35,473 nt of DNA from a candidate division WWE3 bacterium CG08_land_8_20_14_0_20_40_13. Its GTDB lineage: Bacteria; Patescibacteriota; WWE3; 0-14-0-20-40-13. The notes below the pieces were generated by a model. That model was not told where the DNA came from, made no database searches, and worked only from the letters and a program-made list of their open reading frames with translations. A program made the translations under genes and the position numbers. Where the stretch lies: assembly GCA_002774285.1 (NCBI GenBank), contig PEYT01000006.1:1-35473 (forward strand), written 5' to 3'. Shown piece after piece: positions 13,968-25,847 of the stretch; within the stretch, counting starts at the first letter, position 1; each line of letters starts with the position of its first letter.

Positions 13968-15587
13968 CTAAATATTTTTCTTAAAAAGATAATAGACGGG
14001 GGTATTGGAAATGTAATAAGTCTTTACAGGTGTATACACATTCATAATATAAAGATTTTTTAGCCAACGGTCGTCCGTTTTAAATAAGACAAGGTATTTT
14101 GGGTAGTCTCTTAAAGGAGATTTTCTCCTGATATATTCCGTCATATCGTCAACAACCCCTACTGTGTACGGCTTTAAGCAACCCTTGTAGGTTCCACTGA
14201 TGCCTATTGAATATGTATCGTCATCTTCTCCTTCTAAATTATTTATATCTGTAGCCACATCGTACAGCATTGACTCACAACCTCCTAGTTCAGTAAAGAG
14301 TTTCATTTGCGTATCACGGGTGGCGAACAGAGTGGGGTAGACGATAAAATTTGGAGAAATAACAAATATCTCGTAGGCCGCAAAAAGTATAAGCGGGATT
14401 AAGATGATAGGTTTGGTGAGTTTGGATTTGATAAGGGGCGCAAGGTTAACGGAAACAAATAAAGTTAATACAGGAACAAAAGGCAAAAGATACCGTTCGT
14501 AAAGCTTCCGGTCTTCGATAAGTAAAGCCAGAAGAATCAGATAACCCAGAAATGGAAGGAGATTAATTAGGGAGGATCCCTTGAAATGAGGGACCCTCCC
14601 TTTTTGCATTGTATTAGTAACCAGTTTTGAGAGAGATTTTACGATGGTAAAAATAATTCCCGCGATAAGAAACGGAGAAAATCTAAATAGAAATACCAGA
14701 AGATAAAATTTATCCCCAAAATTAGAGTCGGCGTGATTTAAAATATATACGGAGCTAATCTTGTCCGTGTTCTCAATCGAGTCGTGGATTATTTGTCTTG
14801 TCACCTCAATTGGATTTACCCAGTTGGCGGGAAAAACAATTAGGTATGTGGCAAGAAATATCAAGGAAAATATTGTAGAGTGAATAATGGCTTTTTTGTA
14901 ATCCTTATGGATAATATTGGAAGCCAAAATTGCGAGACCACACGATCCGGCGATTGCTAGCGCAGGGGATTTGGACAAGAAAGCCAATCCGCAGAAAAAT
15001 GCTGATAATACAATATGGATTCGGGTTCCACCCGAATCGGGTGGAACCCGATTTAATCTAGTCTGTTGCAGATAAAGCAGTGAATACAACCCCCCGATAA
15101 AGCCAAACGACGACATCAAAACATCCACATGAAACTGTCTTGTGTAAAAAAGAAAGAATGGATCAATAAGTATTAAAAGAAGGTAAATATATGCAACCGT
15201 CCGATCAAATATCTTTTGGGTCAGCCAGTACGACAAAAACGCAAGTCCTAGGGTTGCTAAAACTTGGGACAGCTTAATAGAAAAATTAATAGTTATAAAA
15301 TCGGCAGGGATGTTTTCATCAAGAATATGCCCGGTTATTTTTGGATAAATAACCGTTAAAATTTTGTAGCTTGTTCCTCCAAGCCACATTGTTGTTACTC
15401 CCGGGTGTTGCTTTTGATAAGTTCCCGCAAAATTACCATTCAATAAATTATGTTGAAAATCTACCGCCCTTCTAAACCAGCGATCGGAATCAATAGAATA
15501 AAAATCCTTTCCAAGGTAGTATAATCTTGGAACAAGCGAAAATACTGCTATAAGAAGCCAAAATATATGATTTCTAATACTTCCCAC
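13968..15587 (-). CDS. GT39/ArnT-like polytopic glycosyltransferase (only confident minus-strand gene), GTG start
   Basis: YSIDSDRWFRRAVDFQHNLLNGNFAGTYQKQHPGVTTMWLGG; shares the D..W..R...F / TY...HPGVT.MWL.G signature with 21401-22903; multiple TM segments. Confidence 0.75.
   Translation of the reverse strand: MGSIRNHIFWLLIAVFSLVPRLYYLGKDFYSIDSDRWFRRAVDFQHNLLNGNFAGTYQKQHPGVTTMWLGGTSYKILTVIYPKITGHILDENIPADFITINFSIKLSQVLATLGLAFLSYWLTQKIFDRTVAYIYLLLILIDPFFLFYTRQFHVDVLMSSFGFIGGLYSLLYLQQTRLNRVPPDSGGTRIHIVLSAFFCGLAFLSKSPALAIAGSCGLAILASNIIHKDYKKAIIHSTIFSLIFLATYLIVFPANWVNPIEVTRQIIHDSIENTDKISSVYILNHADSNFGDKFYLLVFLFRFSPFLIAGIIFTIVKSLSKLVTNTMQKGRVPHFKGSSLINLLPFLGYLILLALLIEDRKLYERYLLPFVPVLTLFVSVNLAPLIKSKLTKPIILIPLILFAAYEIFVISPNFIVYPTLFATRDTQMKLFTELGGCESMLYDVATDINNLEGEDDDTYSIGISGTYKGCLKPYTVGVVDDMTEYIRRKSPLRDYPKYLVLFKTDDRWLKNLYIMNVYTPVKTYYISNTPVYYLFKKNI
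14569..14601. repeat. Hairpin element AGGGAGGATCCCT-TGAAATG-AGGGACCCTCCCT inside GT-C gene
   Basis: 13-bp arms, 7-nt loop, one non-Watson-Crick position that becomes a G-U pair on the transcribed (minus) sense; encodes ..KGRVPHFKGSSL.. Confidence 0.85.
15021..15051. repeat. Palindromic micro-element, copy 1: T-CGGGTTCCACCCG-AAT-CGGGTGGAACCCG-A
   Basis: 13-bp perfect arms (14 with flanking T/A), 3-nt loop; inside the minus-strand GT-C gene as ..RVPPDSGGTR.. Confidence 0.95.
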
Positions 15588-25262: not shown

Positions 25263-25847
25263 ATGAACGAAGATATTTTCCATTTAGGAATTAAAGCAAT
25301 AATTAGAAATCCTGAAGGAAAAATTTTGCTTTTGCGGGTTAATTTGGAAAAGCTAACTATCAAAAATAAAGGTGCGTATTGGGATATTCCTGGAGGAAGA
25401 ATTCACAAGGGATCGACTATCGAAGAAACCTTAAAGAGGGAAATACAAGAGGAGACTGGAATTTTGGAGGTCTACTCATTTAACAAATTAGATATGGTTT
25501 TATCAAACATTCGTATTCCACAAGTAGATGGTTCATTTGGGCTTATTCTTGGAATTTATGTTTGTGATGTAGGAAATATTGATAAGATTATTATTAGTGA
25601 CGAGCACACAGAATACGGTTGGTTTAACCCTCAAGAAGTAGCTGGTCTTTTGCAAGTAAAATATCCCCCAGAATTTTGTGAAAAGATATCAAACTGGCAA
25701 AAACGGGTACTACCCGAATCGGGTAGTACCCGGTATTTTGTTGTATCTAAAGTTTATAACGCAAATAGGTTTTTGTGTTGTCACGATAGTATTATCATTA
25801 GTCAACCTCAAAGGTTGGTTTTACTAGAGGTATCGAATGTATTTTAA
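25263..25847 (+). CDS. NUDIX hydrolase with unusual C-terminal extension across a palindrome
   Basis: NUDIX box GGRIHKGSTIEETLKREIQEETGIL. Domain seems to end near PPEFCEKISNWQ; the remaining ~45 aa run through the palindrome at 25704. Confidence 0.85.
   Translation: MNEDIFHLGIKAIIRNPEGKILLLRVNLEKLTIKNKGAYWDIPGGRIHKGSTIEETLKREIQEETGILEVYSFNKLDMVLSNIRIPQVDGSFGLILGIYVCDVGNIDKIIISDEHTEYGWFNPQEVAGLLQVKYPPEFCEKISNWQKRVLPESGSTRYFVVSKVYNANRFLCCHDSIIISQPQRLVLLEVSNVF
25704..25732. repeat. Palindromic micro-element, copy 2: CGGGTACTACCCG-AAT-CGGGTAGTACCCG
   Basis: 13-bp perfect arms, identical AAT loop and identical CGGGT/ACCCG frame, different compensated core; inside the NUDIX ORF as ..RVLPESGSTR.. 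Confidence 0.95.

Follow-up and report, generated by a model that had tools for sequence, protein, structure and literature searches.

Y1 transposase-associated palindromes dispersed in the small genome of a candidate division WWE3 bacterium, with in-frame copies in protein-coding genes

The window analysed here, a stretch of 35,473 nucleotides from a candidate division WWE3 bacterium, carries short palindromes inside reading frames (Table 1), the perfect forms of which are dispersed through the source genome and also bracket Y1 transposase genes. We consider it very probable that the palindrome represents a non-autonomous miniature mobile element of REP-like doublet form, spread by a cognate single-strand DNA transposase of the Y1/HUH type whose gene lies outside the window.

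Results

Palindromes within the window

Positions 15022-15050 read CGGGTTCCACCCG-AAT-CGGGTGGAACCCG and, together with the flanking T and A, form a 31-bp perfect palindrome with a 14-bp stem and a 3-nt loop, each half of which makes its own 5-bp hairpin with a 3-nt loop. The first-pass annotation of this DNA had described both the perfect palindrome and the mini-hairpin in each arm, and both descriptions are borne out. The DNA fold of the 31-bp form reaches -18.3 kcal/mol (z -6.4), and the number of matches to the palindrome pattern expected from shuffles of the window is 0.00. Also as described, the element has zero stop codons in the six frames checked and leaves the 539-aa minus-strand ORF uninterrupted. 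The copy in the Nudix hydrolase ORF differs in its loop triplet, and on each strand one of its frames contains a stop codon; this ORF resembles its 68%-identical homologue only as far as residue 143, and the palindrome lies just beyond, at residue 148.

Table 1. Palindromic elements and their host genes in the window.
Feature	Position	Strand	Remarks
Host gene, GT-C membrane glycosyltransferase (PMT family), 539 aa	13968..15587	-	two in-frame palindromes in inter-helix loops
Older imperfect palindrome, GGGANNNTCCC-9nt-GGGANNNTCCC type, in GT-C gene	14570..14600	.	residues 330-340
TTCC-type palindromic element TCGGGTTCCACCCG-AAT-CGGGTGGAACCCGA	15021..15051	.	RVPPDSGGTR, residues 180-189 of minus-strand GT-C protein
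Host gene, Nudix hydrolase ORF, 194 aa	25263..25847	+	68%-identical homologue, similar as far as residue 143
ACT-type palindromic element CGGGTACTACCCG-AAT-CGGGTAGTACCCG	25704..25732	.	RVLPESGST near Nudix ORF C-terminal end

The GT-C fold of the first host protein was recognised through Pfam PMT matches, and Foldseek matched the protein to ArnT, ALG12 and oligosaccharyltransferase. In its structural model (pLDDT 82.9), the TTCC-type copy falls in the loop between predicted helices 154-177 and 187-205, in agreement with the inter-helix position proposed earlier. No congeneric orthologues were found in a genome-contig search with the GT-C protein, so an empty site among close kin is not demonstrable; the only orthologue close enough for comparison, that of the sister genus (G001, 69% identical), is without RVPPDSGGTR, its loop there being different and shorter by 5 aa. 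A clean empty site was thus not available for the window copies, nor was any target-site duplication seen, and both points weigh against the mobile-element explanation.

The second palindrome of the GT-C gene reads GGGAGGATCCC-TTGAAATGA-GGGACCCTCCC, is mostly paired on folding and codes for a portion of the loop that connects helix 305-329 with helix 337-358. Its type recurs in the source genome on contigs C18, C30 (twice) and possibly C19, with copies also within a methyltransferase ORF and a phosphoesterase ORF; a transposase of its own was not seen in the assembly. The half GGGATACTCCC of this type recurs as that of a family linked to Y1 in G010, a more distant genome (window 14570-14600; L253, L255, L257). 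At the homologous site, the GT-C gene of G001 carries a palindrome of equal length (31 bp) and different sequence, with both partners changed at pairs 5:27 (G-C/C-G) and 12:20 (T-A/G-C). Common ancestry followed by rewriting and two insertions into one tolerant site are both possible origins. That in-frame palindromes last at one gene site across genera, their sequence rewritten yet still palindromic, strikes us as rather doubtful; such rewriting could proceed by in-place conversion toward other repeats, via the transposase or recombination, and, if true, would make genic copies long-lived reservoirs of the repeat population.

Dispersal through the source genome

The assembly of the source genome comprises 32 contigs (634 kb; 92% complete) and holds nine copies of the strict palindrome pattern, with three loop types (TTCC, ACT and TTTC), while the half-site CGGGTNNNACCC occurs 28 times in forward and 31 times in reverse orientation, versus 1 and 1 for a reversed control pattern. 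The first-pass annotation had left it to a genome-wide search whether more than two copies exist, and to orthologues whether RVPPDSGGTR is conserved as ordinary protein sequence; the nine strict copies, together with some 30 half-sites on either strand, answer the first, and the G001 protein without the motif answers the second, so that neither of the refuting outcomes named in that annotation was observed. Reading of the sequence at these sites yielded a catalogue of 32 elements of four sequence types, the fourth being TCTTCCACTTC-N-GAAGTGGAAGA, and their centres vary, with CCCGAATCGGG in some and CCCTTTAGGG or CCCGATAGGG in others. An exact-pattern scan of genome contigs returned 0 matches to the 29-bp form in other species, which is consistent with species-specific repeats.

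Conservation extends beyond the arms. The TTCC and TTTC copies have GA[AT]T[CT]AAT-like flanks common to both sides, outward positions 3 and 5 of the ACT copies are T with no exception, and most ACT copies are flanked by TTTT-like sequence on one side and by TAT on the opposite side. These flanks may represent element ends or a target preference, a putative counterpart of the guide and cleavage sequences of IS200/IS605 elements (PMC8266576).

Several elements are nested. At L156:1366-1410, a clean insertion of 22 bp, CCTGCCTTTCCGGTAGGCAGGC, interrupts a TTCC element at its centre, and the empty form is found at C11:17848; a related insert, CCTGCC...GGCAGG, lies within the palindrome at L150:831-876, and the palindrome at L148:1371-1408 has a GC-rich centre, ATCGCCGGCGGGCGAT.

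Y1 transposases bracketed by palindromes

Two pairs of copies lie about 750 bp apart, each around a Y1 transposase gene: TTCC copies identical to that at 15021-15051 on contig C25, and ACT copies on contig C10. A third Y1 gene, on contig C11, has a CTTCCACTTC-type palindrome on both sides, so that the candidate Y1/HUH mobiliser whose search the first-pass annotation had suggested is represented by three palindrome-bracketed genes. The encoded proteins (218-223 aa) share 34-44% identity with one another, and all three score above the cut-off of Pfam Y1_Tnp and reach about 50 bits with NCBIfam REP_Tyr_transpos, under its cut-off of 80. The only PDB sequence match of the Y1 transposase profile was 4er8, E. 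coli TnpA-REP, which was also the best fold match of the transposase model (pLDDT 91.5), followed by ISDra2 and IS608. Motifs are NHYH and YIHLNP in the C10 protein, NHFH and YIHLNP in that of C11, and YIHTNP, a near match, in that of C25. The transposases matched no phage family in PHROGs, and for the TTTC and GGGA types no own transposase was present in this incomplete assembly. The C25 unit begins 6 bp from a tRNA-Thr gene (L014:1315-1427). The half-repeat CTTCCACTT is tandemly doubled 3' of the C11 transposase (L018:3287-3320), and extra half-units likewise stand beside other Y1 genes (G010, G001).

The presence of palindromes at both ends of transposase units of about 0.75 kb would also fit a small IS200-like insertion sequence with the palindromes as its ordinary ends (terminal inverted repeats), the solo copies then being remnants of internal deletion or excision that are not separately mobile; TIRtrons with TIR repeat families are on record (PMC3733652). 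We regard this as improbable, given that over 20 solo copies stand against 3 transposase units and that the transposases are mutually divergent rather than near-identical copies of one IS.

Across the class, Y1_Tnp genes were found in 25 of the 48 genomes; small relatives measure 0.4-1.1 Mb. The same palindrome occupied both sides of 17 of the 33 Y1 genes whose frame was recognised by the script, which missed the frame at 17 of 50 loci, compared with 14 of 1056 mismatched pairings of upstream and downstream flanks. The 76%-identical transposases of C11 and G001 have one palindrome in common. In the more distant G010, the Y1 gene is surrounded by a separate dispersed family, CGGGATACTCCCG-AAT-CGGGAGTATCCCG. 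Overall, similar transposases tend to carry similar palindromes, an effect that is weak but measurable (Mantel rho 0.24, p about 0.01).

Copies inside genes and in gaps

With gene calls based on ORFs and family matches near each copy, about 7 of the 32 catalogued elements are intragenic, their hosts being proS, recR, dnaX, rmlA, the GT-C and Nudix genes and a 92-aa ORF that matches no family. The remainder lie mostly in short gaps, many less than 60 bp from a stop codon, and the depletion from genes is strong (p below 1e-14, assuming that coding DNA makes up at least 85% of the genome). The genic copies therefore appear as a tolerated minority, as for REPs elsewhere, where insertions within genes are already known (PMC3733652; PMC6006769) and the host genes include DNA-repair genes and tRNA synthetases (PMC3733652). 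The RecR and ProRS palindromes occupy variable loops, with little or no net lengthening in ProRS; since the available orthologues are about 50% identical there, the insertion boundaries are ambiguous. The consecutive genes proS, recR and dnaX each contain an in-frame palindrome, with three loop types, within 1.7 kb (L143:1023-2691).

These findings divide the earlier reading of an RPE-like element tolerated within genes: dispersal and in-frame tolerance hold up, while the likeness to Rickettsia palindromic elements (RPEs) rather than REPs gives way before a mostly intergenic distribution and a Y1 transposase bracketed by the same palindrome. A repeat that spreads within genes by some other route and lacks a transposase of its own would account for the in-frame copies in proS, recR, dnaX, rmlA and the GT-C and Nudix genes, and RPEs do insert in-frame in R. 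conorii (PMC3733652). That explanation is largely refuted by the linkage of identical palindromes to Y1 transposase genes, and the intergenic majority and the lack of the CGTC tag of RPE-4/RPE-6 also speak against it, leaving it highly improbable.

The proximity of many copies to stop codons could instead reflect a retained function as transcription terminator, mRNA-stability hairpin or protein-binding site, with multiplication by selection, and such roles have been proposed for REPs (PMC3733652). Identical sequences, however, stand in-frame in the middle of unrelated genes, the family sequence varies in step with the transposase, and Rfam gave zero matches within the window; we consider this explanation very unlikely.

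Discussion

In the favoured explanation, a mobile palindrome served by a Y1 enzyme, each half of the unit would be a small hairpin and two inverted halves would make the element of about 29 bp. The autonomous unit of about 0.75 kb would comprise a TnpA-REP-like gene for about 220 aa with one copy of the same palindrome at either end. The data themselves establish dispersal, pairing with Y1 genes, scarcity within genes and a loop position; that the enzyme recognises, cuts and copies the element, and that the element is mobile, we infer: the transposase would recognise the hairpin in single-stranded DNA, cut at flanking positions and join the product elsewhere. As a result of such putative cutting and joining, stray copies would accumulate, and the window copies would be stray non-autonomous ones. 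Those which shift a frame or fall in essential sequence would be lost, so that the survivors would be found mostly just outside genes, together with an in-frame minority in variable protein loops.

Comparison with known systems

Like IS200/IS605 elements, the system has a HUH/Y1 transposase, with a fold related to those of IS608 and ISDra2, and hairpins near both ends; unlike them, its transposases are divergent and single-copy, and the dispersed unit is the palindrome rather than a whole IS. No gene resembling tnpB came to notice in the short stretches examined.

With RPEs it shares in-frame palindromic inserts in unrelated as well as essential genes, but the dedicated transposase, the mainly intergenic distribution and the missing RPE-4/6 tag set it apart. 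RPEs have no known transposase, and RPE-1 is longer than the window element.

The resemblance to TIRtrons and their TIRYT transposases (Di Nocera 2013; Y1 subclass 2.1 of Quentin 2018) lies in proteins of about 220 aa whose motifs equal or come close to NH[YF]H and Y[IV]HLNP, the signature of that subclass (PMC6006769), and in the palindromes that stand singly on either side of the gene, some TIRs being self-complementary and repeated in the genome. Subclass 2.1 consists largely of TIRYTs flanked by terminal inverted repeats (PMC6006769; PMC3733652) and is recorded without REP-like sequences (PMC6006769), whereas here there are dispersed families with in-frame intragenic copies. The GGGGWSAS motif, present in most but not all TIRYT inverted repeats, was not found within 15001-15070, and the Y1 proteins gave no Pfam match at 0.001 to the C-terminal HTH domain of TIRYTs.

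Because a transposase is paired with its cognate palindrome, the system is best called REPtron-like. In common with the REPtrons (TnpA-REP/RAYT) of E. coli, Pseudomonas and Stenotrophomonas, it has a Y1 HUH enzyme of the 4er8 fold, a transposase gene flanked by palindromic repeats of a dispersed family, a repeat family for each transposase with several families per genome (three transposases and three palindrome types in the source genome), and mostly intergenic copies with some in-frame intragenic ones. It differs in that the doublet spacer of 3-4 nt yields a single palindrome of about 30 bp, that copies number in the tens and that the host genome, at 0.63 Mb, is not large. It also has no GTAG/GTGG foot, the flanks being of GATT/GAAT or CATTT/CCTAT types, and in the absence of a GT[AG]G foot the element is not classed as a canonical GTAG REP.

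A survey ties REP-type transposases to large genomes (PMC6006769), and our literature search found no relevant report of REP/RAYT or palindromic elements in candidate phyla or bacteria with such small genomes; the 0.63-Mb genome described here nevertheless has three such transposases with their own palindromes, and copies in the core genes proS, recR and dnaX. If confirmed, this would widen the range of REP/RAYT-type populations to include a class of very small genomes, in which every copy can be listed and mobile palindromes can be seen turning into protein sequence; the palindromes may also account for odd in-frame loop insertions in proteins predicted from such genomes. As far as our searches reach, the kind of system is known, and the transposase subtype and the small-genome setting are new.
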